Assembly (NCBI GenBank): GCA_026702745.1
Contig: JAPPBT010000102.1
Location: 1 to 64,000, forward strand
Length of the DNA stretch: 64,000 bases
Source: Gemmatimonadota bacterium
Lineage (GTDB): Bacteria; JAAXHH01
Direction: 5' to 3'
Position 1 is the stretch's first letter; each line of letters opens with the position of its first letter. The position numbers were made by a program, and so were the translations under genes. Below are positions 38,371-55,017 of this stretch, piece by piece. The notes under the pieces were generated by a model. The model had not been told where the DNA came from. It worked only from the letters and a program-made list of their open reading frames with translations, and did no database searches.

Positions 38371-39837
38371 ATGTTCCAAGGCCTCAAAAGACTCACCACC
38401 CATTCGGCGATCTACGGTCTCAGCGACGTGCTGGGCAGGTCCATGGCCTACCTGCTGGTACCGGTGTATACCCATGTCATGCCCGTGGAAGAATTCGGCT
38501 ACTATGGGCTCGTATATACCTTCATCGCGCTGGCCAACGTCGTCTTCCTCTACGGCATGGATTCGGCCTTTCTCAGGTACTACGTGCTCGAGGAAGACCG
38601 CAAGCGGGATACGCTGAGCACCGGCTATCTCACCATGCTGTTCACGTCGGCCGGGCTCGCCGTGATCATCGTCCTGTTCGCCGCCCGGATCGCGCCCCTG
38701 ATTGCCGTCTCCGCTTCCCTCACCTCCTACGTCCAGCTGGCCGCCGCCGTCCTGGCGCTGGATGCCCTGAACGCCATTCCCTTCGCGCGACTCCGGGGAG
38801 AAGGCAAGGCGGCGACGTTCGCCTCCCTCAAGCTGATGAAGGTCATGATCGAACTGGGGGGGAACTGCTACCTCGTCGTCGTGCTCGACATGGGGCTGCA
38901 GGGCATTCTCATCAGCAACATCGCCGGGTCCGGTATCGTTTTCCTCATCCTGGCGGGCATTACCCTGCGGCACATGTCCTTCTCCTGGTCTCGCGGAACG
39001 ATGGGACGGCTCCTTAAGTTCGGCCTGCCCTACGTGCCCGCCGGCGCCTGCATCATCATCATCGAAACCATCGACCGGCTGATGCTGGAACGGATGGCCG
39101 GCACGGAAACCCTCGGTATATACCATGCGGCCCGCAAACTGGGCGTCGGCATGCTCATCTTCGTCACCATGTTCAGGCAGGCCTGGCAGCCCTTCTTCCT
39201 GGAGACTTCCAGGGAGGAGAACCCCAGGCCGCTGTTCGCCCGCGTGCTGACCTACTTCCTGGCCATTGCGGGCGGCGTCTTCCTGGCCCTTTCTTTCCTC
39301 ATCGACGACCTGGTCCGCATATCCTTCGGTGGCTATACCCTTATCGAGGCGTCATACTGGGAAGGGATCGCCGTGGTACCGATCCTGCTCGCGGCTTACG
39401 TGCTGTATGGGATCTACGTCAACCTCACCGTGGGCGTCTACCTGGAGAAGAAGACCATCCTGCTCCCCTTCATCACCGCCGCGTCGGCCCTGGTCTGCAT
39501 CCTGACGAACCTCTGGCTCATCCCGGAATTAGGCATGTACGGGGCGGCAACGGCCTCTGCGGCCGCCTACGCGGTGATGGTGGCCGGGCTGTATTTCGTG
39601 GGCCGGAGGTACTACCCCATACCCTATGAATACATCCGTCTGCTCAAGGTAGTCTTCGCGTGCGGCGTGCTGTTCGCAGTGCGTGAACTCACCGGAAGCG
39701 CATGGCCCGGGGAGATCACCTGGCCCGGGGAGATCGCCCTGGTCGCGGCCTACCCGGTGGCGTTGTGGGCGATGAGATTCTTCAACGCCGGGGAAATGGC
39801 GTTTGCGAGACGATACCTGCGCCTTCGCGGATCGTGA
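38371..39837 (+). CDS. Polysaccharide flippase (Wzx-type, MOP superfamily)
   Basis: The gene encodes 488 residues with about 12-14 membrane segments and the typical start LTTHSAIYGLSDVLGRSMAYLLVPVYT. It should move lipid-linked sugars across the inner membrane for surface polysaccharide. AGGA lies just before ATG 38371. A duplicated WPGEI(T/A) hexapeptide lies near the C-terminus (39703-39738). The 3' end overlaps that of the opposite ASPIC gene by 56 bp. No glycosyltransferases are next to it. Confidence 0.85.
   Translation: MFQGLKRLTTHSAIYGLSDVLGRSMAYLLVPVYTHVMPVEEFGYYGLVYTFIALANVVFLYGMDSAFLRYYVLEEDRKRDTLSTGYLTMLFTSAGLAVIIVLFAARIAPLIAVSASLTSYVQLAAAVLALDALNAIPFARLRGEGKAATFASLKLMKVMIELGGNCYLVVVLDMGLQGILISNIAGSGIVFLILAGITLRHMSFSWSRGTMGRLLKFGLPYVPAGACIIIIETIDRLMLERMAGTETLGIYHAARKLGVGMLIFVTMFRQAWQPFFLETSREENPRPLFARVLTYFLAIAGGVFLALSFLIDDLVRISFGGYTLIEASYWEGIAVVPILLAAYVLYGIYVNLTVGVYLEKKTILLPFITAASALVCILTNLWLIPELGMYGAATASAAAYAVMVAGLYFVGRRYYPIPYEYIRLLKVVFACGVLFAVRELTGSAWPGEITWPGEIALVAAYPVALWAMRFFNAGEMAFARRYLRLRGS
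39703..39738 (+). repeat. In-frame 18-nt duplication in the flippase gene
   Basis: Two 18-nt units (39703-39720 and 39721-39738) differ at one position and encode WPGEIT and WPGEIA in a loop between the last membrane segments. Confidence 0.85.
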
Positions 39838-41554
39838 TCAGCTGGCCACCTTCGACTCCGGTTGCGACGTCTCTCGCGCCGAGGGGCCATTCCACGATGA
39901 CCGAGTCCGCCACGGCGTGAGCGCCAAGTCCGAAATGGGCCCTGAGATCGTTGGCCGCAAGGTAGCTGTAGGCGCTTCGGATTTCCCGCGACTGTCGTAT
40001 GGCATCCGTGACCACGGTGACCCGCGCACCGATGCCGTTGCGATTGCTCCGGACGCCCTCGGTGGCGACGAGCAGGCTGAGGGGGTCGGACTGACCGGCG
40101 CCGCCGCTTCCGACGCCATCGCCGCCCCCAATCACGCCGGTCGCACCTCGCCCGTTAATCCCGTCGTTCCGCAGCAGCAGCGGGACGTCGTTCACCGTGG
40201 TGACCAGCACGTCGACGTCGCCGTCGTTGTCCACGTCTCCGAAGGCCGCGCCACGGTGCACGCGCTCCACCTGGAAGGGTGGACCCGCTTCAGGGCTGAC
40301 GTCGGTGAAAACGCCATCGCCCTCGTTCCGGAACAGCTGATTGGTCTGCGCGTAGGTGATCGTCGGATCGAAGAGGGAGATGTTGTCGATCACGTGGCCG
40401 TTCGCTGCGAAGATATCCAGCCAGCCATCGTGATCGAAATCCTTGAAGGCCGTACCGAATCCCAAAAAGAGCAGTGTGGGATTGCCCACGCCCGCGCCGA
40501 AAGTCGTTTCGGTGAATGTACCGTTCCCGTTGTTCCGGTGCAGCGAGTTGGGTTCCAGGGAGAAATTGGTCACGTAGATGTCCGCCGACCCATTCCGGTC
40601 GTAGTCTCCGAAATCCACCCCCATGCCCGCCCGGGCTACGCCGTCCTCGCCATAGGCCACGCCCGCCAGCAGGGCCATGTCGGTAAACGTGCCGTCGCCG
40701 TTGTTCCGGTACAGGAAATCCGGCGTCAGGTCGTTGGCCACGAAGATATCCGTCCATCCGTCGCCGTCGTAGTCGCCTCCCACGACCCCGAGGCCCTTGC
40801 CATTCGGATTCGAGATTCCCGCCGCCACGGAGACGTCGGAAAACGTGCCGTCGCCGTTGTTTCGGTACAACAGGTCGGCCGCGCCTTCGTAGATGTCGGG
40901 TCCGCAGTAGGACTGGATGCCGTCCCGGGAGCAGCGCTTGTTGGTCTCGAAGTCGAATTCGACGTATGCGCACACGTAGAGGTCCAGGTACCCGTCCCGG
41001 TCGTAGTCCAGGAACGCCGCGCTGGTCGAGAACATGGGGTTCGTCGGTACCGTCAGACTCGCCCGGGCGGTCACGTTCCGGAATGTCCCGTTCCCTTCGT
41101 TACGGTAGAGGATGTTCGCCCCGTAATTCGTGACGAACAGGTCGTCGTCGCCGTCGTTGTCGTAATCCGCGACGGCCAGGCCCATCCCGTAACCCCCCGC
41201 ATTGCCCACGCCGGCCTGGCTGGTTACATCCGTGAAGGATCCGTCACCGTCGTTGCGATAGAGGGCGCTGGACAGGGGCCGGTCGGGCACGAAACCCGGT
41301 ATGGCCGCGCCGTTGAGCAGGTAGACGTCGAGGTCGCCGTCTCCGTCGTAGTCGATGAACCCGCCGCCGGACGCCACCGTTTCGAGGAAGTAGTACCGGC
41401 CCGATTTGCCGTTGGTGTGCCGGAACGTGATCCCGGCGGTAGACGCGATGTCCGTGAACTGCACGACCGGCCGGGGCCCTTCAGGACGAGGATCGGGCTG
41501 GCCACAGGAAGGAAAGAGGAATAGGAAGGAGAGAAGTACCGGCGCCCATCTCAA
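39782..41554 (-). CDS. CRTAC1-like lipoprotein with FG-GAP repeats and ASPIC/UnbV domain
   Basis: The gene encodes 590 residues. A lipoprotein signal ends at FPSC. FG-GAP/VCBS blades with calcium-binding-like motifs (DYDGDGDLDVYL, DYDNDGDDDLFV, DYDRNGSADIYV) make up most of the protein, and the C-terminal ASPIC/UnbV domain is recognised by SNRNGIGARVTV and VIVEWPLG. A glycine-rich insert near residues 464-490 splits the start of the ASPIC domain. The start codon TTG overlaps the stop of the upstream gene as TTGA. It is the last gene of the envelope cluster. The role is probably surface binding or adhesion. Confidence 0.85.
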   Translation of the reverse strand: MRWAPVLLSFLFLFPSCGQPDPRPEGPRPVVQFTDIASTAGITFRHTNGKSGRYYFLETVASGGGFIDYDGDGDLDVYLLNGAAIPGFVPDRPLSSALYRNDGDGSFTDVTSQAGVGNAGGYGMGLAVADYDNDGDDDLFVTNYGANILYRNEGNGTFRNVTARASLTVPTNPMFSTSAAFLDYDRDGYLDLYVCAYVEFDFETNKRCSRDGIQSYCGPDIYEGAADLLYRNNGDGTFSDVSVAAGISNPNGKGLGVVGGDYDGDGWTDIFVANDLTPDFLYRNNGDGTFTDMALLAGVAYGEDGVARAGMGVDFGDYDRNGSADIYVTNFSLEPNSLHRNNGNGTFTETTFGAGVGNPTLLFLGFGTAFKDFDHDGWLDIFAANGHVIDNISLFDPTITYAQTNQLFRNEGDGVFTDVSPEAGPPFQVERVHRGAAFGDVDNDGDVDVLVTTVNDVPLLLRNDGINGRGATGVIGGGDGVGSGGAGQSDPLSLLVATEGVRSNRNGIGARVTVVTDAIRQSREIRSAYSYLAANDLRAHFGLGAHAVADSVIVEWPLGARDVATGVEGGQLITIREGAGIVSQTPFPRR

Positions 41555-42102
41555 CGGCGTTTTCTCATAAGTACGACGGTCATGGCCACGAGGGCAAGCA
41601 CACCCAGGCTGACCCCGGCGACGAGAAAGCCCGACACCGGTTCCCTGACCAGCGGAACCTCGAAGGCGACACTTGCCTTCTGTTCGCCGCGGGCCGCAAA
41701 CTCCACCTCAACGTGATGCACGCCCGGAATCCGCCGGGTCCACATGATGGGACGGTCTATGGCCTCGGCTTCGGCACTGTGGTAATGAGTGTATACGTTG
41801 CCCTGTGGATCCGTGATCCCGATCCGGAGGACGCCCGCGTAGTATTCGCCCGACGACCTGCGCTGGACGTAGGTCACGAATCGCGCGTCGCCGCCGAGAT
41901 CGTAGGCCTTGAAGGTCAGCGTGTACCCTGCGTCCATGTCCCGTGCTTCGTCGACGACGGCCTGCTCGGAGAACGTATATCCGACGAAAGTGCCGCCCGC
42001 CACCTGATCGTCACCGGGCGCCCCGTTGCAGCCTGGCGCCGTAACCACCAGCGTGACCACCGCCGTGAACACCAGAAAGAAGCTTGTTTTGATACCGCGC
42101 AC
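41551..42102 (-). CDS. Lipoprotein with C-terminal membrane anchor, unknown function
   Basis: The gene encodes 183 residues. The start is GTG 42102, overlapping the upstream TAG by one base (TAGTG) with GAGGAG eight bases ahead; the longer open frame upstream is not supported. An N-terminal hydrophobic stretch ends in TAPGC, a lipobox-like site. The middle is a beta-rich domain (YTFSEQAVVDEARDMDAGY) and residues about 160-178 form a second membrane segment followed by MRKRR. The pattern resembles a small sensor or an electron-transfer accessory, but no family is recognised. Confidence 0.7.
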   Translation of the reverse strand: MRGIKTSFFLVFTAVVTLVVTAPGCNGAPGDDQVAGGTFVGYTFSEQAVVDEARDMDAGYTLTFKAYDLGGDARFVTYVQRRSSGEYYAGVLRIGITDPQGNVYTHYHSAEAEAIDRPIMWTRRIPGVHHVEVEFAARGEQKASVAFEVPLVREPVSGFLVAGVSLGVLALVAMTVVLMRKRR

Positions 42103-43229
42103 TAGTTGTACTCCTCGGGAAAAACGAAGTGGTACCGGACGACTCGGTCCTCCTCCAGTTCCGCGAAATAGATCCGGCCCTGCCGGTCCACGTGCATGGG
42201 TACGCCGACCACGTCGAACTGCGCCGACATTTCCCACTTTCCATCCGGCCTGAAGAAATCGAACCATCGATCCAGTTTCGTCAATTGCAGTCTGGGCATG
42301 CCCATCACGTTGAGACCGATCTGTTCGAATTCCTGGTACTGTATGGAGTTGACGATTCGTCCGTCGGGCAGAACGGCCAGTCCGCCGGACACGCCCACGG
42401 GCGGCGGTTGCCGCGTAGCCGTCCAGCGCGCCATGGGGTTCATAGCGAAGGGAGTGGTCCGGTAGAACTCCAGTTCCAGTCCGTTTACCCGGTCGAATTT
42501 ACGGATCCAGTAAGGGTGTTTCGCGGATACGACCACGTAACCGTCCTCCGTCGTTTCCATGGCCGCGTCTGAATACGCGATGAATTCCTTGAGCGTTCCC
42601 GTGCGCCGCAGGGTCTCCATCGGATTGTAGAACTTGGTGATCGGATCGCCTTCCGGACTGTATTTGTAGATGAGATCGTGCTGCGTAATGACGAAGACGA
42701 GCACGTTGCCCTCGGCATCGATGCGTATGCGGCGAGGCTTCGTAACCTGCGTGGACCAGATGTCCGCGAAGGTAAGGTCCGGATTGAGTACCGTGACCCG
42801 GTCGAGTTCGTTGTCCAGCACGAACAGTCTTCCTTCGTCATCCACCGCCATGTCTACCGGAGACCTGAACTGCAGCGGTCCCACGCCTAACGACCCTACG
42901 GCCGACTGAAAGCTACCGGATTCGTCGAACCTGGAAATCTGTTTTAGGTCCGAATCGGCAATATAGATGTTGCCGCTTCGATCCGTGGTGATCCCGAAAA
43001 CCGAAGCAAAGGACGGGCCCTCGCCTCCTTGGATCACCAGGTCTTCTTCGAGCGTGACGTCAGCCGTCTGATCGGGTGCGTGCCGGACCGGGGCGTCGCT
43101 GATGACTCTTGAAGCGCCCGCGACCACTTCCGTTCTCCCGCGCCACATCCCGTCATCGTCCGCTTCCGTACAGCCCATCAGAAGTGCCGCGGCCAGGAGC
43201 GACAACGCTCCGGACTTGAACCGCTTCAT
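42102..43229 (-). CDS. Six-bladed beta-propeller (NHL-like) lipoprotein
   Basis: The gene encodes 375 residues. The signal peptide ends at ALLMGC, a lipobox. The body shows repeated GNIYIADSDLKQISRFD and DEGRLFVLDNELDRVTV blades of the 6-bladed beta-propeller type. I chose ATG 43229 because AAGGAG lies six bases upstream; ATG 43265 would overlap the TPR gene. Such proteins bind peptides or small ligands on the cell surface. Genes of this type often accompany TPR and receptor genes in FCB bacteria. Confidence 0.8.
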   Translation of the reverse strand: MKRFKSGALSLLAAALLMGCTEADDDGMWRGRTEVVAGASRVISDAPVRHAPDQTADVTLEEDLVIQGGEGPSFASVFGITTDRSGNIYIADSDLKQISRFDESGSFQSAVGSLGVGPLQFRSPVDMAVDDEGRLFVLDNELDRVTVLNPDLTFADIWSTQVTKPRRIRIDAEGNVLVFVITQHDLIYKYSPEGDPITKFYNPMETLRRTGTLKEFIAYSDAAMETTEDGYVVVSAKHPYWIRKFDRVNGLELEFYRTTPFAMNPMARWTATRQPPPVGVSGGLAVLPDGRIVNSIQYQEFEQIGLNVMGMPRLQLTKLDRWFDFFRPDGKWEMSAQFDVVGVPMHVDRQGRIYFAELEEDRVVRYHFVFPEEYN

Positions 43230-43254
43230 CCGCTTCTCCTTCCGGTACATCGAT

Positions 43255-44871
43255 TCATGATCCATTCCTTTCCTGCCTGATCTGCTCCCACTGCTGCTGC
43301 AATATCACGTTTTCCGGCTCGATACGGATGGCAGTCCGCATCGCTTCATCGGCCCCGCCGTAGTCTCCTCTCGCGTTCCGCACGATAGCGAGCGTTTCGT
43401 AGGCGACGGCGGTAGGCGCGATCTCAACCGCCCTGCCAGCCAGTTCAAGGGCACGGTCCAGGTCCTCCCCGTGCCGGGTGATGAGCCAGGCCAGGTTCGT
43501 ATAGGCCTCCACATAGTTCGAATCCAGCAGGATCGCCTGCTGATATGCAACGCGTGCCTCATCGAACATGCCCAGTTCCACGTAGGCCACGCCCAGGTTG
43601 TTAAAGGCGTGAACGAAACGGGGCGACAGCTCCGTCGCTATCCTGAATTCCCGCACGGCGTCCTCGTACCGGCCCAGGCGGGTAAGGGCCGTCGCCATGT
43701 TGTAATGCACCTCCGCCACCCGGGGGTTCAGCCGTACCAGGGATTCCGCCTGCGACAACGCTTCCCTGAACCCGTTGAGCTGCTGAAACGTATCGAGAAA
43801 ACGCCTGGCCTCGTCCTGTCTGCCCATGGCGTTCAAGGTGTTTCCGATCGCAAGATAGGGTTCGGGGTACGTCCGGTTGAGTTCTATCGCCCGCGAGAAC
43901 GCTTCCAGGGCTTCTTCTTGCCGTTGGGCGGCCGCATAGGCCGTACCCGCATGGTAGTGAAGGGTAGGCGACTCGGGATCCATCTCCAGGGTCTCCTTGT
44001 ACAGCGTGATCGCCCGTTCAGCCTGGCCAGCACGCAGCGAGGCCTGGGCAAGACCCGCGATGGCTTCCACCGATGCTTCATCAATGCGTAGCGCGTTCTC
44101 GTAGGACCGGACCGCGTCGTCGACACGGCCTTCACTCAACGCGATCACACCGAGCTGGCAGTAGGCTTCCAGCATGCCGCTATCCACCTGCAAAACCGCA
44201 CGAAAGGCATCCCGCGCTTCCTGGAACTTACGCTGATCCAGCATCACGCGTCCCAACGCGAACCGGGCGTCGACGTATTCCGGATCGATGGACAGGGCAT
44301 TGGCATAGGAAATGGCGGCCTCGTCCAGGGCGCCCAGTTTCTCTTCCGTGGTCCCCCGGCCGTAGTGAAACCGGCTGTTGTCGGGGTCACGGCCCGTCGC
44401 CTCGACGAAGGACTTGATCGATTCGACAAGCCGGCCCGTGTACTGGTAGGCCTGGCCCAGGTTGTAGTGAGGTTCGGCGCGATCGGGATCCATTTCCACG
44501 ACGCGGAGGAACGCCTCGATCGCTTCGTCGTACCGTTCCTGCCGGGCGTAGACCAGACCCAGGTTGAAATGGGCATCGGCGTCCCCGGGACGCAGTTCGG
44601 TGACGACCAGGAAGGCCGCTTCCGCCGTGTCCAGCTTTTCCAACGCGACGGCGGCAAGCCCAAGGTTGAAGTAGTTGGAGGGTTCGTTCCTGTTGTCCTC
44701 GATCTGCCGTCGGAAGTACATCACGTCTTCGAGCAGAATGGACTCGTCCTCGGGGGACAGTTGCCTGACCCCTTCATCCTGACGGACGGTGGTTATGCTC
44801 GTTAGGTAGGGACCGGTGTCCGTAATCAGAGGCGTGTAAAGCAGAAGGGCTGCGAGAAGGATATTGCGCAT
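43255..44871 (-). CDS. Tetratricopeptide-repeat protein with signal peptide
   Basis: The gene encodes 538 residues with an N-terminal hydrophobic signal (MRNILLAALLLYTPLI) and about twelve TPR units, for example NYFNLGLAAVALEKLDTAEAAF and HFNLGLVYARQERYDEAIEAF. It is likely periplasmic and acts as a scaffold. It begins ten bases after the cytochrome gene ends, so both are probably on one mRNA and could work together in heme-protein assembly or electron transfer. Confidence 0.88.
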   Translation of the reverse strand: MRNILLAALLLYTPLITDTGPYLTSITTVRQDEGVRQLSPEDESILLEDVMYFRRQIEDNRNEPSNYFNLGLAAVALEKLDTAEAAFLVVTELRPGDADAHFNLGLVYARQERYDEAIEAFLRVVEMDPDRAEPHYNLGQAYQYTGRLVESIKSFVEATGRDPDNSRFHYGRGTTEEKLGALDEAAISYANALSIDPEYVDARFALGRVMLDQRKFQEARDAFRAVLQVDSGMLEAYCQLGVIALSEGRVDDAVRSYENALRIDEASVEAIAGLAQASLRAGQAERAITLYKETLEMDPESPTLHYHAGTAYAAAQRQEEALEAFSRAIELNRTYPEPYLAIGNTLNAMGRQDEARRFLDTFQQLNGFREALSQAESLVRLNPRVAEVHYNMATALTRLGRYEDAVREFRIATELSPRFVHAFNNLGVAYVELGMFDEARVAYQQAILLDSNYVEAYTNLAWLITRHGEDLDRALELAGRAVEIAPTAVAYETLAIVRNARGDYGGADEAMRTAIRIEPENVILQQQWEQIRQERNGS

Positions 44872-44881
44872 GCCGTACCCG

Positions 44882-46813
44882 TCAGTCGAAGTAGGATCTG
44901 ATTCGATCGCGGAGGCTCAGTCCTTTTGAAGGCGTGGAAACTTCCAGTTGCCCAACAGGCCTTACCGAGGTGACGTCCGAAGCCACGGTCATGTCCTTCT
45001 GTGTCCACTTCTTGAGATCCGCCAGCGGCTTGAACGCTCTTCTGTAAATCAGATCGGTATGGATATCCACGCGATCGACATCCGACGGGACTTCAAAGGA
45101 ATACACGGAGCGATCCGCCTCGCGCGCCTTGATCCGCGTGTCTTCAACGATGCGGGTCGCCTGCCAGTCCATGACGTGGGTATTGCCCTCGTCGTCACCG
45201 AAGACCAGGGCGAATCCCTTGCCCGGGTAGCCCGCGTAGTTCCCTTCGGCCAGGTCGCCTTCCCCGCCGTAGGACGGTACGCGCTGGTCCCCCAGGTAAC
45301 GCAGGGTATCGCCATTGGCCAGCACCGGTGTGACGAGCAACAGCATGTTTCGGATGGTGATTCCCGACGGGATATGGTGGCCGGTATTTACGTTGCGCAC
45401 GTCCACGGTCACCGTCAGCAGGCCTTTGGATACAACAGCGTCGATGGCCAGGGTGGCGGCATTCGGCAGGAGCTCTTCCGTGGCCCCGGGGAACCCATGT
45501 GTTTTAACGGTGGTCGGATCCCGGTATCCGATGGGTGTCCAGAACTTCTCCGCGTCGCCGTTTACGAAAGAACCAAAGGTGAAACCATCGGATTCGGGCT
45601 CCATGTGACAGTCCTGGCACTCGATGCCCATGGCGGAATAGGGACTCTCCTTCCATTCCCGATACGTATCCATGAACGGAAGGCCGTGCTTGTTCTTGTG
45701 CTGGTGGCAGGCAGAGCAGTAGTCACTGCTCGTGTATTGCGGATTGTAACTCGCCACCATCGGAGAGGTGTTGGATGAACCCGGCAACGGGGTAAAGTTG
45801 ATGACGTCGTCATAGGGTCCGTAGACGAAGATCGGCGGAAACTTCCCCTTGATGAGCCTGGCATGTCTTTCCTCTTCCATGGCCACCAGGTTAAGGGTAA
45901 TCGATCCATTCACGCCCGCGTGATCATTCACCTCCACGTTCTGGATCTTGTGGCAGAAATCGCAATGTATCCCCGCGGCGTCGACCGAACCGGCCATTTT
46001 CTCGTACTCCATGCGTTCAAGCGTCTTGTAGTCCTGGATGGTAGGATAGGCCAGCGAACGGTTGTACACGACCTTCAGGTCGGTGTTCCCCGGCGCGCGC
46101 ACGGCGGCCGAGGGAGCGTGGCAATCGGCGCATTCTCCGGCTTCATCGGGGAAATCCAGCCTGAAACCCGGCCCCACGTTCTCATTCCCGTCCGCATCCG
46201 TACCGTCGTAAAGATTCAACGTCCACGGATTGGTCACGCCTTTCGCGTGTTGGGAAGTATTCCACTGATCGTAGAGGTCTCTGTGGCAGAGGTAGCAGGT
46301 CGGTTCGAAATGGCAGAGGTTGCACCCCTCTTCGAAGCCCGTGTGGGATTGCATACGCAGTCGTTCCAGCTCTTCCGGATCTTCGCGAAGATCGACCAGC
46401 GATTTATGGGGGGTGATGAAATCGTAGGAGTCGTCTTTTTCTTCCGGTACTTTTTGCAATATAATCGTCGTATATGAGGTTTTGGGATCGACCATGACCC
46501 CGCCATTCAACCAGCCTTCCTTGCCTGCCGTTACCGCGTAATGCTGCACGGGATCTTCAATGATGTTCAGGGTAAACCTTCCCTCGGAATCGGTAAGCAC
46601 GAAATTCGGCTTTCCGTGTTCCCGCACGCGGACATCCGGTATGGGATCTTTCCCATCGATGACGATTCCGCTCAGCTGCAGGGCCTGGGCCCTGGTTTCC
46701 AGACCGATCATCGCTCCGGCTGTCACGATGCATCCGATCACGAAAATCCTCAACACCTGCCTGAATGCGGTCAGGCGTTTCGCGGCCAGTCCGGTCAGTC
46801 TGTACAACACCAT
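44882..46813 (-). CDS. Six-haem c-type cytochrome (cytochrome c554-like) with N-terminal regulatory-like domain
   Basis: The gene encodes 643 residues. An N-terminal membrane/signal segment (residues 18-38) is followed by a carboxypeptidase-regulatory-like Ig domain (LSGIVIDGKDPIPDVRV, residues 46-120). Six CxxCH haem motifs follow at residues 164, 173, 228, 284, 366 and 399; the last roughly 240 residues are beta-rich and have none. The layout fits a periplasmic or surface cytochrome of the c554/nitrite reductase-related family. The Shine-Dalgarno GGGGAA lies within a leader that contains competing hairpins (46825-46876). Confidence 0.88.
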   Translation of the reverse strand: MVLYRLTGLAAKRLTAFRQVLRIFVIGCIVTAGAMIGLETRAQALQLSGIVIDGKDPIPDVRVREHGKPNFVLTDSEGRFTLNIIEDPVQHYAVTAGKEGWLNGGVMVDPKTSYTTIILQKVPEEKDDSYDFITPHKSLVDLREDPEELERLRMQSHTGFEEGCNLCHFEPTCYLCHRDLYDQWNTSQHAKGVTNPWTLNLYDGTDADGNENVGPGFRLDFPDEAGECADCHAPSAAVRAPGNTDLKVVYNRSLAYPTIQDYKTLERMEYEKMAGSVDAAGIHCDFCHKIQNVEVNDHAGVNGSITLNLVAMEEERHARLIKGKFPPIFVYGPYDDVINFTPLPGSSNTSPMVASYNPQYTSSDYCSACHQHKNKHGLPFMDTYREWKESPYSAMGIECQDCHMEPESDGFTFGSFVNGDAEKFWTPIGYRDPTTVKTHGFPGATEELLPNAATLAIDAVVSKGLLTVTVDVRNVNTGHHIPSGITIRNMLLLVTPVLANGDTLRYLGDQRVPSYGGEGDLAEGNYAGYPGKGFALVFGDDEGNTHVMDWQATRIVEDTRIKAREADRSVYSFEVPSDVDRVDIHTDLIYRRAFKPLADLKKWTQKDMTVASDVTSVRPVGQLEVSTPSKGLSLRDRIRSYFD

Positions 46814-46824
46814 CGGAATTCCCC

Positions 46825-46876
46825 GATTCTCTCACAACATAAGAGAATCCCTCATCGAACGGACTGAGGGATTCTC
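46825..46876 (-). promoter_or_regulatory. Competing hairpins in front of the cytochrome gene (attenuator-like)
   Basis: On the mRNA, segment B (46854-46842) can pair with segment A (46876-46865) as a perfect 12-bp stem with a 10-nt loop, or with segment C (46832-46825) as an 8-bp stem with a 9-nt loop. C ends right before the GGGG of the ribosome-binding site. The 3' side of the A:B stem is followed by TTATGTTGT. The region also could serve as terminator of the preceding PorV-like gene. Confidence 0.5.
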
Positions 46877-46929
46877 CTGGTGCTTCAAACGATAATGCTT
46901 ACATCCATCGGTACTTCCTGGCTTGATGT

Positions 46930-47913
46930 TTAGAAGCCCACGCCGACGGACACGCGATGCAGATCGTCCAGCAGTTCATACTGCGTATACGCGTAATCAA
47001 CGTTGAGACTCAATTCACCCTGGCTGAACCGGAGACCGGCACCAGCGGAAACGCCTTCGTCCTGGCCGCCACTGTAACCGGCTTTCCAGCCAACCCGCCC
47101 CGCGATGTAATCGTTCACCCACCACTCGATACCAAGATTGAGCACGGAATCGAACTCGCGAAGCTTCCAGAGTTCGGCGCTGGTCATGATGCTACCCACC
47201 GGCAGTTCGGTCGGTTCAATGGCGAAACCGATACGGAACGTCGTGGGCAACTGATCGCGAGCGCTCGACTCATCGATGAATTGCATGTCCGGACCGAAGT
47301 TCTGGAACGAGGCGCCAATACGGAAGTTACGGAAGTCCGTCGTATAGATGGTGCCCACGTCGACCGCAACCGCCGTGCTGGTCCGGTCATCGTCTCCGGC
47401 ACCGCTCGTGCCTTCCGACACGTACTTCAGCGATCCACCGACCGCGAACGAATCCGTCAGACGACGTGCGTAACTCGGACCGATGGCCAGGTCCGTCACG
47501 TTAAAGTTCTGGCCCTGGTTGGCGAATTGACCCGTCGGATCTCCAGAGGTGGTATAGGGTATGTCGCCCGAAAGCAACGAATGCACACTCACACCCACCG
47601 CCCCGTTATCGCCGAGATTCCACACGAGACCTGCGCTGAACACGGTCATTTCCGCAAAATACGGTGCGTAGGAAACGCCGACCGCACCCCTGCCCTCAAC
47701 GAACACCATGGTAGCCTGGTTCGTAAGGGCCGAGAAGGCGCCAAGGTCCGTATAGGACGTGGCGGAAGATGCAACACCCGCGACACGGGCGCTAGAATCC
47801 AGCGTCAGAAACTTCGTCGCGGCGGTTCCACCTTTGGAAACCTGAGCATGTACCGGCGCTGACAGTGCCAGCAGCAGTCCGGTGACCACGCCCCAGCGAA
47901 ACAATACTTTCAT
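46930..47913 (-). CDS. PorV/PorQ-like outer-membrane beta-barrel protein
   Basis: The gene encodes 327 residues. A signal peptide ends near VHAQ, followed by KGGTAATKFLTLDSSARVAGVASS and alternating barrel strands ending in VSVGVGF. This pattern fits the PorV/UPF0164 family, which shuttles cargo of type IX secretion. GGGAGG lies eight bases before ATG 47913. It lies just downstream of the large secreted protein with a sorting-like tail, which supports a cargo-partner relation. Confidence 0.8.
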   Translation of the reverse strand: MKVLFRWGVVTGLLLALSAPVHAQVSKGGTAATKFLTLDSSARVAGVASSATSYTDLGAFSALTNQATMVFVEGRGAVGVSYAPYFAEMTVFSAGLVWNLGDNGAVGVSVHSLLSGDIPYTTSGDPTGQFANQGQNFNVTDLAIGPSYARRLTDSFAVGGSLKYVSEGTSGAGDDDRTSTAVAVDVGTIYTTDFRNFRIGASFQNFGPDMQFIDESSARDQLPTTFRIGFAIEPTELPVGSIMTSAELWKLREFDSVLNLGIEWWVNDYIAGRVGWKAGYSGGQDEGVSAGAGLRFSQGELSLNVDYAYTQYELLDDLHRVSVGVGF

Positions 47914-47987
47914 TAGAAAACCTCCCTGAATCGGACCGCCCCGCGCCATGGCCGGTCATGGCCCATGGCGCAGGACGTAACCGCAGT

Positions 47988-50900
47988 TTACCGCCGGACG
48001 TAGAGTTTCAACGTTTTCGCGTAGTCCACGCCACCGATCTCGGCTTCTACCACGATAATATACAGACCGCTGGAAACAGGTACGTTGGAATCATTCTTCA
48101 GATCCCAGTCCGTCACACCACCGATCGTCGTGGTCTGGTCACCCGGCACGGAGAACTGCTTCACCTGCAGGCCGGCCGCATCGAAGATCGTGATGCGGGA
48201 CGGTACCGGAGCGTTGAAGAACTTGACGGTCTGAGACTTCGTCGCCAGATCCCACTGGGCCTGGAAGACAAAGGGGTTGGGTGCGACCGTCATCAGATTC
48301 TCAAACTCCGCCACACCGCCGACCACGTCGTTACGGACCACGGTTGTCGGGATGACGTCCTGTCCCGGAACCTGCGGACCCACCGTCAGACCCCGGTAGG
48401 GATACTGACCGTGCCAGCGTCCGTCCGTCCCGTTTGCGTTCATCGTGTAGAAACTCTCGAGGCCATTGATGGTACGGGTGATCACGCGCTGCGAAGAACC
48501 CTGATCTGCGACGTAGTTGTCGAAATCGTGCTGCTGCGCGCTTTCGGTATCCACCGAGGCTACGTAGTACCAGTAGCTGAACCCGATCAGCACGGAGCGA
48601 TCCTCGAACATATAACCGCTCTTGCCCACCAGTCGGGGATCGGTGGGAATACCGCCAACACTGGTAATCTGCGCATCACCGGATCCGATGGCATCCGGAT
48701 AGCGATCCGAGAAGCTGGTGGCGATGGCCGTCGTGGCGCCCAGTGCGTTGTTTGCTTCGACGATCTGCGCCGAACTGGGCTTGGTTTCGATGAAATCATC
48801 CTCGAAACCCGGCAGCCTGCTGCCAGCCGGATACGGGTTCGGATAGGAAACGGACTCCGGCGGATTCAGGCTGTTGGTCTGATTTCCGCCGCCGCCGCCG
48901 AATTCAGCGATCTGGACGTACGGACCGGAGAAGTTCGGCGCTGCGAAGCGCTTCACCAGGTCGTCAGCCACGAAGTCGTATACCCGGCCGATGTTATAAT
49001 CGGCACCGAGGGTCAGCCCTTCGTGGATGAACCGGGCGTAGGGATGGCCCTGCTTCACCGCGGCACTCGTCGGATCGGTTACGTCCGTGACCGGTGCAGC
49101 GCCTTCGCTCAGACCCAGGTTCGGCGGAATCACCGTACTGTTGTAACCGACTTCATGGGCCACCGTAGCGGTCGGGAACTGATCAATGAAACCGGAAGCA
49201 CGGTACACGCGGTACTTCGAGAAGTCCGCGCGGCCCAGGCCCGGATCCCTAGCCGTTTCCGCATTGTTGGCCCATGCCAGCGCGATCGTACCGTTGGCGG
49301 TCGGGAAGACCGACAGGGTAGGAGGCGGAGGCGGATGGAACAGCGCGCCGCTGGCTGCACCGCGACCGGGGTTGTGCGTCGCGGTCATGACTGCGCCGCC
49401 ACCGTCCCGCATGACGGAACCATCAGCGTTGTACATTGGGACAGTGCGGTCATTGGAGCCGTCCCAGTAGTACGTGTTGTTGGCCATGTTGTACTTCCGC
49501 TGCATCCACACGTCCATGGCACGGAGGTACACGTCGTAAGTGCCGTCCTTGCCGGCGCCGACGACATCAGCGTGCCAGATGGACAGATCCTCGCCGGGCG
49601 CCTTGGTGTAGGGGCCCCAGCCAAGGGCGTTCCGGATACAACCGGCGCCCGAGGTCTCTTCCTTCGTGTCGCTTCCGTTGTACGGATCGGGCACGATGCC
49701 CCGGAACACGCCGTCGAGATCGAAGAGCGTAAAGCTGTCATACTGACCAGGCTGCACACCATTGGCCACGCCGGGGTTGCCGGACTGGGTCAGGTTACGC
49801 GGGTCGCCCCACATCAGGCCCATGCCCGCGGCCGATCCACCCGGCTGCGTCTTGGCAGTCCAGGTGCTGATATCGGAGTTTCTATCAAGCGGAGAGCCAC
49901 TGGTAAAGAGATCCGGATGCGGTGAACTGCTTCCGCCCGGCACGTTGACTTTCTTGTTCTCGAGGTACTTGGTAAGGGAACCCTCGTACCAGCCGAAAAC
50001 GGTCCTGAGGTCGGCGATCCACCATTCGTGGGTATTGAACAGGCCGACGGAAGGCGCGTCATAGATATCCAGCGCCGCGACATTGTTCAGATCCCCGTAC
50101 ATATCATCGTCGCCGGAACCTTCCAGGACCAGCAGGGAGGCCTCGCCCACGTGCAGCGGATTGAAGTTACCGTTGGTCGTATTCCACACGTAGGAATCGA
50201 TCCCCGGATGGTTCGGATTGTCCTCGTCGAACATGGTAACCAGACCCGAATAGAAACGATCGCTGAAGGGCGCCTGGTTGTATCGACCCGAATTGATCAA
50301 TCCTTCCGGCACGGCGAGAGGCATCACACGACTGAACATGGCGGGCGGCTGCTTGTCGTCGCCGCCGGTTCCGCCGCCGATCGCCCCACCGGTCAGGAGT
50401 GGGTTGTTCGTCCAGGGAATATCAAAGTCGTAATTGAAGATGATCAGGAAGTTCTTGATCGTAACGCCTTGCTCTTCCAGCGTGCCGTCCTGATTCACAT
50501 CGACATCACCGTGCACGTGCAGCACGTGACGCAGCAGGATGAAATCATTCGTATGACCGTAGCCGTAGCTGAAGCTGTACGACTGACGCTGGACACGGAT
50601 GCCGGCATTCGTATTGAACGTCGTTTCCGTAATGAACGGCTCGCGGTAACCGCCAGGTCCCACGGTGCCACCAGCAAAACCCGGGCTCGTTGATCCACCC
50701 TGATCGGACCAGAAGCCCTGGGGCGCCTGCTCGCGCTGGTGAGGCGGTGCACGGTAAACGTTGGTGGTACCGATGAAATCGCCTTCAGCACGGCTGATGG
50801 GCATACCGGCCACGGCGTTGGGCTGATAGGCCGTAATCCCGAAGGCCGACGCCCACAGCGGCGCATCCAACCCGCCCGCGGGAAAGGTGTACGACGGGAA

Positions 50901-51179
50901 GCCCATCGTGGGACTCATGGAACGGCCCGATCCCCGCCAGCCTACGCCGGTGTAGGTATCGGTGATTTCCGAGTTCATGATGGCCATGTAGGTCTGGCCG
51001 CCAATATAGGCATCCTGTCTTTCGTCCAGGGCCAACTCGTTCGGGATCGGAGACCCCTGAGTCGCCGCGGATCTTGCCGGGGCGTCCGGCAACGCCGTGA
51101 GGTATTGAGCGACCCCCAGGGCAAGCGCCGTCGTAAACACGACCGCTCCGGCTGTTACATATCGACGCCATTTCTTCAA
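47988..51179 (-). CDS. Large secreted protein with C-terminal sorting-like domain
   Basis: The gene encodes 1063 residues. TTG 51179 is the start, with AAGGAGG six bases upstream; no ATG fits. The N-terminus KKWRRYVTAGAVVFTTALAL is a signal segment. A fibronectin-III-like region occurs near GTIALAWANNAETARDPG. The last roughly 90 residues (APNPFVFQAQWDL to LKLYVRR, with DAAGLQVKQF and SSGLYIIVVEAE) resemble type IX secretion sorting domains. No enzymatic motif is recognised in the central region. It lies between the TonB-dependent receptor and the PorV-like gene, and is probably exported to the cell surface. Confidence 0.75.
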   Translation of the reverse strand: MKKWRRYVTAGAVVFTTALALGVAQYLTALPDAPARSAATQGSPIPNELALDERQDAYIGGQTYMAIMNSEITDTYTGVGWRGSGRSMSPTMGFPSYTFPAGGLDAPLWASAFGITAYQPNAVAGMPISRAEGDFIGTTNVYRAPPHQREQAPQGFWSDQGGSTSPGFAGGTVGPGGYREPFITETTFNTNAGIRVQRQSYSFSYGYGHTNDFILLRHVLHVHGDVDVNQDGTLEEQGVTIKNFLIIFNYDFDIPWTNNPLLTGGAIGGGTGGDDKQPPAMFSRVMPLAVPEGLINSGRYNQAPFSDRFYSGLVTMFDEDNPNHPGIDSYVWNTTNGNFNPLHVGEASLLVLEGSGDDDMYGDLNNVAALDIYDAPSVGLFNTHEWWIADLRTVFGWYEGSLTKYLENKKVNVPGGSSSPHPDLFTSGSPLDRNSDISTWTAKTQPGGSAAGMGLMWGDPRNLTQSGNPGVANGVQPGQYDSFTLFDLDGVFRGIVPDPYNGSDTKEETSGAGCIRNALGWGPYTKAPGEDLSIWHADVVGAGKDGTYDVYLRAMDVWMQRKYNMANNTYYWDGSNDRTVPMYNADGSVMRDGGGAVMTATHNPGRGAASGALFHPPPPPTLSVFPTANGTIALAWANNAETARDPGLGRADFSKYRVYRASGFIDQFPTATVAHEVGYNSTVIPPNLGLSEGAAPVTDVTDPTSAAVKQGHPYARFIHEGLTLGADYNIGRVYDFVADDLVKRFAAPNFSGPYVQIAEFGGGGGNQTNSLNPPESVSYPNPYPAGSRLPGFEDDFIETKPSSAQIVEANNALGATTAIATSFSDRYPDAIGSGDAQITSVGGIPTDPRLVGKSGYMFEDRSVLIGFSYWYYVASVDTESAQQHDFDNYVADQGSSQRVITRTINGLESFYTMNANGTDGRWHGQYPYRGLTVGPQVPGQDVIPTTVVRNDVVGGVAEFENLMTVAPNPFVFQAQWDLATKSQTVKFFNAPVPSRITIFDAAGLQVKQFSVPGDQTTTIGGVTDWDLKNDSNVPVSSGLYIIVVEAEIGGVDYAKTLKLYVRR

Positions 51180-51268
51180 AATGAACCTCCTTATGCCGGC
51201 AACGTCTTGCGAACGTCGCCAACCTGGCGAGGAGACGCGCGGGAAATGCGCGTCTCCTCGCGTTGGAT

Positions 51269-54200
51269 TTACCAAGCTAAGTTGAGACCCACCCAGATAT
51301 CGCGTGGTCCGTTGGCCTGCGAGCCGATGCCACCTACCGGACCGCCTACGAGGCCTACAGGATCTCCACGACGGTGCCAACGATCGCCGGCTGCATTGGC
51401 AGCATTGCTGACGATGCTGTAGATATTCGTCCGGTCGAAGAGATTGTTAACCTGGGTGAACACGCCCAACCGTACCGCGCCGAGATCGAAAGACTTCTGG
51501 GCGTACAGGTCGGTCGTCCACGTCCAGGGCGAACGCTGCGAAGCAGCAAGCAGACCGAGCGGATCGATCGCTTGATCGCTGGACGTGCGGTACTGGTTGC
51601 CGCTCTGCGCCTTGGTCAGGAAGGAAGCGTTTATACCATAGGGCAGCTCGACCAGGAGGTTCGCAACGATCCGGTGACGACGATCGAAACTGGTGAACTC
51701 GCGTATGTAGGTATCCGGCGTCGGAGTTCCATCCACGAAGTCGGAGAATACGAGCACTGTCTCGCCGCCGCGCTCACGAACCGTTTGAGGCGTCGTCAGA
51801 TCGGACGTGAAAGCCAGGGTGTAGTTGGCCCGTACCGAGAACCGGTTGGCCATCTGGCGCCGCACCGACACCTCAAGTCCCCGTGTATCCTGGGCATGAG
51901 TCGGAAGCAGTATGGAAATCTCGCGCTGCGAACCGCCGATGAAAGCGACATCGGGCGCGAAGAGCCATACCAGCGGCAGGTTGTTCACGTCCCGGAAATA
52001 ACCCGTGACGTCCAGGTAGTACCCGGGATAGACCTCGGCCTGCAGACCCATCTCGTAGTTCGTGGACTTCTGGAACGGCAGATCCGGGTTTCCGTGGTTC
52101 CGCTCGAATGACGAGGTTTGAACCAGACCGGTGAACAGTCTTTCCAGCGACGGGCGCTGGTTGAAGATCCCGTACGAATAATGCAGCGCGGCGCGATCCG
52201 TGATCGGGTGAGAGATACCCAGGCGCGGTGCGAGACCCGTCTTCATCGACGGCTCGAGCGTGCGGTATTCGGGATCGTCATGCTCGGGATCGGGACCCGG
52301 ACGCGGACGGTACGGGTTGATCGCGTTGGCGTTGGCATCGAAGATGTCCAGACGCAGTCCCGCGTTCACCACGAGGCTACCGTACTCGATCCGGTCCTGC
52401 ATGTATGCGAAGTACTCGACCGGGTAAACGTGCGCCTGACGTCCAGCGAGGGGCAGGACGCTGGCCGTCGGATCCCGGTTGAGGTCGTTGAAGAGCGTCA
52501 CGGCGTTACCCCGGGCGGGACCCCGCGTGTTCTCTTCGTAATCGTTCATCGTAATGCCGAATCCGCCCTTGAGCTGATGATTCGAGGTCATCTGGCTCGT
52601 AATGGCGAAATTTATGTCGGTCTTGAACGGGCGTCGACTCGTGTAGTTACCGAAGTCGATCGAAGCGTAGGCCTCATCGCCGTACAGGATATAAGGCACC
52701 TGCGTACCGGCGCCCTGCTCAAGCGGCGAATAACCCACGGAGTGGATGAACGCATCGGTAAGGGCCGGCAGGGGCTCCTTGCCGTACTTGGGATTATAGC
52801 GTTCGTTGTACTCGCGCAGGTGGCTGAAGCGGATCTCGTAGAAGGTACGAGGGCTGAGCGTATGGGTAAACGCCAGGTTGAAGTGCAGCCGGCCGCCGTA
52901 ATCCTGGTTGAGACCTTCTTTATTGTACTTCCAGGCATAGTTCGAGGAGCCCGGATCGAAAATCCCGCCGACGCTGCCCGAACCACGATTGCCCTTCTTG
53001 CTGAAGAAACCCTGGTCTTCGATGAGTCCGGACATGGACAGCTTCATGGCGGTCTCTGGCCGGTAGGTCATCTTGACGAAGGTGTTCATCACGCGCGCGT
53101 AGTCATTGGGATTCCGTCCCCAACTCTCCGCGAACCGGCCCGATGCGAACCAGTTCAACTTGCTGCCCAGCGGACCGCCCATGCCGAAGTCGATCTGTAC
53201 CGGGCGCTTCTCCGTCCGGTTGTTCCGGGCGAACTGGTTGTACTTGTCCAGATGGAACGACCGGTCCACTGCGAAACTATTGGCCTGGGCTTCCGGCAAA
53301 CCGTCGGTCAGATAGGACCAGTTGATGGCCTCGACCTCCGGAATGACCCGGTCATAATCCCAATAATAGTTGTCGCGCTTGTAGATGGCGGACCAGCTGT
53401 CCGGCGCGCCGGTCATGTCCAACACGTCGAAGGGATCCTGCAGCCTGAGACCGTCGTCCGCGCGGGCCGGGTCGCTGTTGAAGGCGTTCGTCTTGTCGAT
53501 CGCGTCCTGGATGACCTTGCGCAGGTCCTCCTCGGACCAGGTCCCTGCCCGGTACGCGTCCACGATATCCATATCCGGCGGCTTGACCCAGTTGAGACCC
53601 TTCTGGCCCAGCGTGCGGTATTCGAAGTTACCGTTGTAGCTGGCGCCGCCTTCGCGGGTCACCACCGAGGTAATGCCGGCCAGTGCGTTCACGTATTCGG
53701 CGTTGAACGTACCCGTCTTGACCTCGAGTTCCTGGATCATGTAGGGGTTGACCGCAAACGCCTGTCTCGTATTCGTACGCTGCCCGGTTACCGTGGCCCC
53801 GTCGAGCGTGGTCTGCTGATCCTCCGCGCGACCGCCTCGGAGGTTACCGGCGAAACTTCCCGCAGTGGTCAGGACCACTTCGGAAATGCTGATCACCGGC
53901 ATCGAGTGGATTTCCTCGGCCTGCACGATGGTCCGGGTGGAGGTAAGGCTCTTCTCGACCAGATCCCGCGTCGCCACGACCTCGACCGCCTCCGCGGATT
54001 CGAGAATCGTGGATTCCAGCTCGAAGTTGAGCGTCGTGGTCAAGTCGGCATTCACCAACGTACCCACGGCCCTCACCGGGACGTAGCCGATGACGTTCAC
54101 CACCAGGTTGTAGTTGCCGGGCGGTACGTTCAGGATAAAGTACTCGCCCATGTCATTCGCCATCGCACCCAGAACCGTGCCCTCGACTTGGACACTGGCT

Positions 54201-54346
54201 GCCGGCAGCGGTTCCCGCGTCGCGCTGTCGACCACGACACCGGAAATCTTACCCAGCGACAACTGCGCCTGTGCATCCGTCGAGATGCTGAGCACTAACG
54301 CGAAAGCGAATGCGAAGCGCAAAGCTCGTGAAATTGTTATAGACAT
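51269..54346 (-). CDS. TonB-dependent receptor with carboxypeptidase-regulatory-like domain
   Basis: The gene encodes 1025 residues. A signal peptide ends at DAQAQ; a carboxypeptidase-regulatory-like domain (SGVVVDSATREPLPAASV, GEYFILNVPPGNYNL) precedes a plug with LRGGRAEDQQTTLDGATV and a long beta-barrel. It should be an outer-membrane importer or SusC/Cna-B-like receptor. GAGGAG lies eight bases before the ATG. It opens the minus-strand envelope cluster; the stop is 89 bases ahead of the next gene. Ligand unknown. Confidence 0.88.
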   Translation of the reverse strand: MSITISRALRFAFAFALVLSISTDAQAQLSLGKISGVVVDSATREPLPAASVQVEGTVLGAMANDMGEYFILNVPPGNYNLVVNVIGYVPVRAVGTLVNADLTTTLNFELESTILESAEAVEVVATRDLVEKSLTSTRTIVQAEEIHSMPVISISEVVLTTAGSFAGNLRGGRAEDQQTTLDGATVTGQRTNTRQAFAVNPYMIQELEVKTGTFNAEYVNALAGITSVVTREGGASYNGNFEYRTLGQKGLNWVKPPDMDIVDAYRAGTWSEEDLRKVIQDAIDKTNAFNSDPARADDGLRLQDPFDVLDMTGAPDSWSAIYKRDNYYWDYDRVIPEVEAINWSYLTDGLPEAQANSFAVDRSFHLDKYNQFARNNRTEKRPVQIDFGMGGPLGSKLNWFASGRFAESWGRNPNDYARVMNTFVKMTYRPETAMKLSMSGLIEDQGFFSKKGNRGSGSVGGIFDPGSSNYAWKYNKEGLNQDYGGRLHFNLAFTHTLSPRTFYEIRFSHLREYNERYNPKYGKEPLPALTDAFIHSVGYSPLEQGAGTQVPYILYGDEAYASIDFGNYTSRRPFKTDINFAITSQMTSNHQLKGGFGITMNDYEENTRGPARGNAVTLFNDLNRDPTASVLPLAGRQAHVYPVEYFAYMQDRIEYGSLVVNAGLRLDIFDANANAINPYRPRPGPDPEHDDPEYRTLEPSMKTGLAPRLGISHPITDRAALHYSYGIFNQRPSLERLFTGLVQTSSFERNHGNPDLPFQKSTNYEMGLQAEVYPGYYLDVTGYFRDVNNLPLVWLFAPDVAFIGGSQREISILLPTHAQDTRGLEVSVRRQMANRFSVRANYTLAFTSDLTTPQTVRERGGETVLVFSDFVDGTPTPDTYIREFTSFDRRHRIVANLLVELPYGINASFLTKAQSGNQYRTSSDQAIDPLGLLAASQRSPWTWTTDLYAQKSFDLGAVRLGVFTQVNNLFDRTNIYSIVSNAANAAGDRWHRRGDPVGLVGGPVGGIGSQANGPRDIWVGLNLAW

Positions 54347-55017
54347 CTAATTCACTCCTCGTTTAACAGAGCCCTTCTGATTATTGTCAGCTTGCCCCGG
54401 CCTGCTGACGGTATCGTAATGTTGCAGACTCGACTTCAAATTCCAACCGCACTTCTTTCGACACTCACCTCCCTCCAGCGATGGTATTGGGGCAATCGTA
54501 TATAAATAAGTAATCTGAATACCTTAAAATACTAGAAACGACATACATGACGGCCGCGTGCAAGGGCGTGAACACGCGACGAAACATCGATTTTGGATGT
54601 CAGGATTCCAAGTTCCTATTTAATGCAAACAACGTGCCAGATTTCGATTCGCCCGCCGGCGCGCACAACTCCCTGCCCGGAACCCATTGGGGCTCTAGGT
54701 GTAACAAGTCCATGTGCCGTATTCTGCCACCTGTAAGGGGTCGTTCCGGACAACACGAAACACGAAATAATTTTCATCCTTCGATACGGGCTGAAACGAA
54801 TTGCACAACACGGTCCGAATCCATTACGCTATCGTACTCATTGCAACCCCGCGACCGCCGTCATATCTTTCTTGACATTATGTACGGACGCGCATAAGGT
54901 GTTGCGCTGGTAATGGTTCGGCTATGTTTGGTTATTCGCTTGCAACGAGTAGTAAGTATATATCCGGTCCCATTCATAGTCAACATTATTATTTCATTTT
55001 GTTCAAAAAAACAGGCG
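54347..55017. other. Long divergent intergenic region with promoter elements
   Basis: This 671-bp gap separates the divergent receptor and threonine synthase-like genes and is more A/T-rich than its surroundings, with an AT patch at 54500-54545 (tataaataag-like) that could hold the receptor promoter. A 116-codon open frame at 54547-54897 has no motif or Shine-Dalgarno and is not called. No tRNA or riboswitch was recognised. Confidence 0.45.
54872..54900 (+). promoter_or_regulatory. Candidate sigma70-type promoter of the threonine synthase-like gene
   Basis: A perfect TTGACA (54872-54877) is followed after 17 bp by TAAGGT (54895-54900), a moderate -10 match. The leader would be about 110 nt to ATG 55018. 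Confidence 0.45.

Follow-up and report, generated by a model that had tools for sequence, protein, structure and literature searches.

A conserved two-module envelope gene cluster joins a recurrent TonB receptor, T9SS-like tail protein and PorV-family trio to a multihaem cytochrome set

The eight-gene cluster described here is built from two modules: module A (genes 1–3) encodes a TonB-dependent receptor, a large exported protein with a T9SS-like tail and a PorV-family barrel, and module B (genes 4–8) a multihaem cytochrome, a TPR protein and envelope lipoproteins (Table 1). Gene content, gene order and its conservation, the recurrence of the module A trio, its separate class of PorV, its tie to SprA and the apparent loss of PorU from the genus can all be read from the sequences of the window (the whole 64,000-nucleotide stretch of DNA that was analysed) and of the genomes compared with it. 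The odds seem to us about even that the cluster is a two-module envelope operon for TonB-coupled capture of a substrate at the cell surface, equipped with a redox module.

Table 1. Features of the cluster, listed from its 5' end
Feature	Position	Strand	Description	Evidence
Gene 1	51269..54346	-	Oar-like TonB-dependent receptor, 1025 aa; CarboxypepD_reg, Plug and barrel	PF13715, PF07715, PF25183; order kept
Gap between genes 1 and 2	51180..51268	-	Two tandem RNA hairpins, then RBS of gene 2	
Gene 2	47988..51179	-	Exported protein, ~1063 aa; type-A-like T9SS C-terminal tail; putative TTG start	Weak TIGR04183
Gene 3	46930..47949	-	Outer-membrane barrel, PorV family; trio class, not housekeeping PorV	NF033709, tree
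Gene 4	44882..46813	-	Six-haem c554-type cytochrome; N-terminal CarboxypepD_reg-like domain	PF13435
Gene 5	43255..44871	-	TPR protein; N-terminal hydrophobic segment	Many TPR matches; N-terminus in relatives
Gene 6	42102..43265	-	NHL-type beta-propeller lipoprotein	PF01436, PF17170; lipobox Cys kept
Gene 7	41551..42267	-	Lipoprotein; C-terminal membrane helix, RKR end; no known family	Alignment of 9 relatives
Gene 8	39782..41554	-	FG-GAP/ASPIC lipoprotein	PF13517, PF07593; lipobox Cys

All eight ORFs listed in a preliminary description of this region are present on one strand, overlapping or spaced by 10–116 bases as it had claimed, and its labels agree with the family matches, which are to a TonB receptor, PorV, a c554-type cytochrome, TPR, an NHL propeller and FG-GAP/ASPIC. 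An overlap between genes 1 and 2 was not borne out: the most likely start of gene 2 is a TTG codon at 51179 rather than 51380, and gene 2 thus does not reach into gene 1. This codon is preceded by AAGGAGG, and both the ribosome-binding site and the TTG are conserved. Gene 7 probably starts downstream of its listed ORF start; searched against Pfam at a permissive E-value, it gave chance-level matches only. In the relatives checked, genes 6, 7 and 8 all keep their lipobox cysteines. Genes 3 and 4 are separated by 116 bases without overlap. An internal terminator had been named as something that would count against a single unit; terminator-like sites across the region occur at the background level of shuffled sequence (14 found, 14.0 expected).

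On its 3' side the operon is bounded by a convergent 523-aa ORF on the + strand, conserved in the relatives compared, whose sequence reads like that of a polysaccharide flippase, and on its 5' side by a divergent threonine-synthase-like (thrC-like) gene. A candidate ninth gene between gene 8 and rlmB, a 263-aa ORF, was rejected as the opposite strand of the conserved 523-aa ORF. Between the operon and the thrC-like gene, positions 54547–54897 hold a short ORF or conserved stretch that is 35–76% alike among members of the genus. A ligand is not indicated by any gene of the operon, and an Rfam scan of the window returned no match, so no riboswitch points to one either.

The first of the tandem hairpins between genes 1 and 2 is an exact inverted repeat with arms at 51227–51240 and 51248–51261. 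Across 12 genomes, 88% of the cells in the aligned fold are paired, above both shuffled and slid controls, and nine pairs in the stems have changed on both sides (23 cells, compared with 7.0 after shuffling). Because the hairpins lack a T run, we read them as a possible stabiliser or processing site, one that could set how much receptor is made relative to surface protein.

Conservation was assessed in a phylum-level group of 16 genomes, the window's included. All 15 others retain the eight genes in this order as far as their contigs extend: 10 carry all eight genes on a single contig (one with the ASPIC gene cut at the contig end), and in the remaining five (G004, G012, G014 and G015 among them) the contigs are broken and the genes present still lie in order. 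The ASPIC end of G009 was set aside in the contig-break count. This arrangement is shared by members of the genus with further genera and families of the taxonomic order, far beyond chance, and persists although the identity of the cluster genes falls to 39–60% across families. The named relatives are metagenome-assembled genomes (MAGs) labelled Candidatus Latescibacterota, Gemmatimonadetes or Zixiibacteriota; from papers on Latescibacterota and from isolate names we take the group to be mostly sponge-associated, which is not established for the window's own genome. The earlier proposal that the eight genes constitute one conserved envelope unit is thus supported within the lineage, where the case that would have spoken against it, the same genes lying apart in related genomes, was not seen. 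That they constitute a single system holds only in part, since the unit is divisible: genes 1–3 occur as a trio elsewhere, and in G015 genes 4, 5 and 8 have paralogues that occur without the trio. Genes 4–8 are joined to the trio in this lineage only.

Gene 1 matched the Plug, CarboxypepD_reg and OMP_b-brl_4 families, and scored 44.3 bits against the SusC/RagA model, below its cut-off of 368.25. The tail of gene 2 scored 16.1 bits against TIGR04183, a sub-threshold match (cut-off 23), and in many outside genomes the same region matches similar large proteins at their T9SS-like tails. A Pfam search with gene 2 found no match, no SusD-family lipoprotein adjoins the receptor, and comparison of the gene 2 profile with the PDB gave nothing credible. 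AlphaFold modelling gave mean pLDDT values of 28.7 for gene 2 and 40.7 for the cytochrome, both too poor for use.

The gene 2 profile found matches in 80 genomes outside the phylum, mostly through the tail region. We selected 40 outside loci, mainly top-scoring ones, solely by their similarity to gene 2 (nearly all of it in the tail). A TonB receptor lay directly upstream in 33 of the 40, a PorV-family gene directly downstream in 33 and both in 32, with contig ends interrupting two loci (L144 and L172). Across many other bacterial lineages the trio is repeated within single genomes, in up to dozens of copies. In one genome assembled as a single contig (G359), receptor, tail-type protein and PorV were found together at 13 of 16 further PorV loci sampled; of the other three, one had receptor and PorV and two had PorV alone. 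The 27 trio genomes sampled from outside the lineage each had 5–39 PorV-family genes, and the window's genus three. The genes 3' of the trios differ, including GH31, PIG-L and cytochrome P460 genes, and by these changing downstream neighbours the trio resembles uptake loci. Uptake or attachment of a substrate, as proposed in the preliminary description, is plausible for the trio.

Two further loci deserve mention. At L136:11479-13395 (G120), a three-CXXCH protein with cytochrome P460 domains lies directly after the trio. The window's genome carries a second pair of receptor and T9SS-tail protein, without a PorV (L100:1418-13015, G000 C20), beside PhoU/PstB/PstA/PstC-like genes and a polyphosphate kinase gene (ppk); this is perhaps a phosphate uptake locus.

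Gene 3 belongs to the PorV/PorQ family (181.7 bits against NF033709, cut-off 90). In a quick tree of 69 PorV sequences, with SH-aLRT support and no bootstrap, a housekeeping clade (SH-aLRT 100) gathered 21 sequences, including all eight that adjoin PorU and the second PorV of the window's genome, and the trio PorVs, gene 3 included, all fell outside it. SprA was detected in the window's genome at 672 bits (cut-off 200), in 28 of 28 trio genomes and in 77 of 80 tail-bearing genomes, compared with 67 of 288 others; related genomes in these counts are not independent. The type IX machinery that the preliminary description proposed to look for is there in part, as SprA and a housekeeping PorV, with PorU absent from the genus.

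This absence appears to be a loss. Peptidase_C25, the domain of PorU, is missing from all 12 genomes of the genus and present in all four other genomes of the lineage, which belong to other genera; a direct search of the genus with the C25 domain of G013 gave nothing significant. In G013, PorU is flanked by an oxidoreductase-like gene on one side and PorV on the other, and in G001 the same space measures 317 bases. That PorU is missing exactly between conserved neighbours argues for its loss from a conserved locus rather than for an assembly gap. At this space the window's own genome has an unrelated 451-aa propeller-like ORF of odd base composition (L097:8077-9432, G000 C34). Given the loss, gene 2 may be held at the surface by its own PorV in this genus. 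Anchoring by PorV cannot be the trio's general reason, since PorU is present in 26 of the 28 trio genomes.

From these observations we infer the following scheme, in which export, PorV anchoring, uptake, electron transfer and any link between modules A and B are the conjectural elements. Gene 2 would be exported through SprA, the type IX translocon, and received via its C-terminal tail by gene 3, its own PorV-family barrel. It would then stay on the surface beside the receptor encoded by gene 1 and act outside the cell as the receptor's partner in capture, in the role that SusD has for SusC, without being a SusD itself. In module B, electrons would enter a six-haem cytochrome, probably with bis-histidine ligation, from quinol, and this cytochrome, together with envelope lipoproteins, would carry them at or near the outer membrane to whatever module A captures. 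A single PorV is reported to be shared among type A cargo (PMC12618676, PMC9143113), so that a PorV dedicated to gene 2 is an extrapolation. A more specific form of the scheme, to which we give roughly one chance in three, holds that the trio is a highly duplicated pan-lineage capture module, each TonB receptor being served by a T9SS-exported partner of its own and by a dedicated PorV paralogue as carrier and anchor, and that in this genus such anchoring replaced the lost PorU and the module fronts a multihaem redox operon.

The cytochrome belongs to the c554 family (23 bits against PF13435, gathering cut-off 20.8), with the penta-haem c552 (5ze8) as its relative in the PDB. Its six CXXCH motifs, which uphold the earlier six-haem label, are invariant in 13 sequences together with seven further histidines, a number sufficient for what is probably bis-histidine ligation. 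These haems are also the starting point for an unlikely alternative, extracellular electron transfer, in which the surface protein would be a scaffold, the cytochrome would reduce an outside acceptor and the receptor would be incidental or scavenge iron or haem. Two relatives of the cytochrome (L155:4362-6395 and L056:1385-3328) bear C-terminal T9SS-type tails, which would make them surface cytochromes, and the first has weak OmcA/MtrC similarity. In G015, and in favour of the two-module scheme as well, a trio-less paralogous set (L055:6495-14296) comprises a cytochrome-b561-like/c554 fusion, a cytochrome, an ASPIC protein, a TPR protein and a Fer4_5 protein, placing paralogues of the cytochrome, ASPIC and TPR genes behind a quinol-type cytochrome b/c. 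Against this alternative, the window's cytochrome has no tail and no deca-haem partner, no MtrB-like barrel lies beside gene 4 (the operon's barrels being the TonB receptor and PorV only), and trios elsewhere adjoin GH31 or PIG-L genes, not cytochromes. Neither a trio nor an ASPIC gene adjoined the cytochrome at any of 20 outside cytochrome loci examined, and the closest outside relatives of gene 4 adjoin Sortilin/BNR propeller proteins. The suggestion that the cluster passes electrons is plausible as regards the cytochrome itself, but neither an MtrB-like conduit gene nor a T9SS tail offers a path across the outer membrane.

It is also improbable, in our estimate, that the receptor works outward, exporting gene 2 or another protein as Oar does PopC in Myxococcus xanthus. 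Gene 1 is in the OMP_b-brl_4 barrel family and the receptor always lies directly 5' of the tail protein, as this would lead one to expect; yet the tail of gene 2 is T9SS-like, the trio tracks SprA, and the direction in which a receptor works is not readable from sequence. We know of no T9SS-like tail on PopC. Equally improbable is that two unrelated operons are neighbours by descent only: either module is found without the other and genes 3 and 4 are set apart by their gap, but the order has held across families despite the divergence of the genes.

The recurrence of the trio suggests a one-carrier-per-cargo construction of surface capture systems, of which we found no description. Our literature search returned no paper on the trio, or on T9SS together with multihaem cytochromes, and is weak evidence of novelty as it covered few subscription journals. 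If the reading is correct, each type-A-like T9SS cargo protein can have a PorV to itself, an arrangement that the literature we found has for type B cargo and PorP/SprF only; a gene family present at 5–39 copies per genome in many uncultured lineages would gain its first functional frame; and, in a little-known group associated with sponges, outer-membrane uptake would be tied to a multihaem cytochrome. Any cultivable species that carries the trio would allow it to be tested.

Among known systems, SusCD of Bacteroidota is similar in having a CarboxypepD_reg TonB receptor, an adjoining large surface protein, many copies per genome and changing neighbour enzymes. It differs in that the partner here is T9SS-tailed rather than a SusD lipoprotein, a PorV-family barrel is included, and gene 1 lies far below the SusC/RagA cut-off. 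For Oar we know of no PorV or tail-protein partner. Gene 1 shares with it the barrel family and the N-terminal CarboxypepD_reg-like domain, whereas Oar exports a protease (PMC6434023). Gene 4 is similar in sequence to c552 (5ze8) and the c554 family over the haem regions, and is distinguished by its six haems, its additional N-terminal CarboxypepD_reg-like domain and a C-terminal beta region. With type A C-terminal domain (CTD) cargo, its shared PorV shuttle and its PorU sortase, the window's genome has in common SprA, a type-A-like tail and a PorV-family protein, but the PorV of the cluster is a paralogue that falls outside the clade of housekeeping PorVs and the genus is without PorU. Type B CTD cargo requires a PorP/SprF barrel of its own, whose gene usually follows immediately (PMC12618676, PMC9143113), and so resembles the trio in having a barrel of the FadL/PorV kind right after the cargo, one per cargo; the trio departs from it in its type-A-like tail, its PorV-family barrel and the TonB receptor in front. 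By this analogy, the trio looks like a type-A-like counterpart of the type B arrangement of cargo and PorP/SprF.
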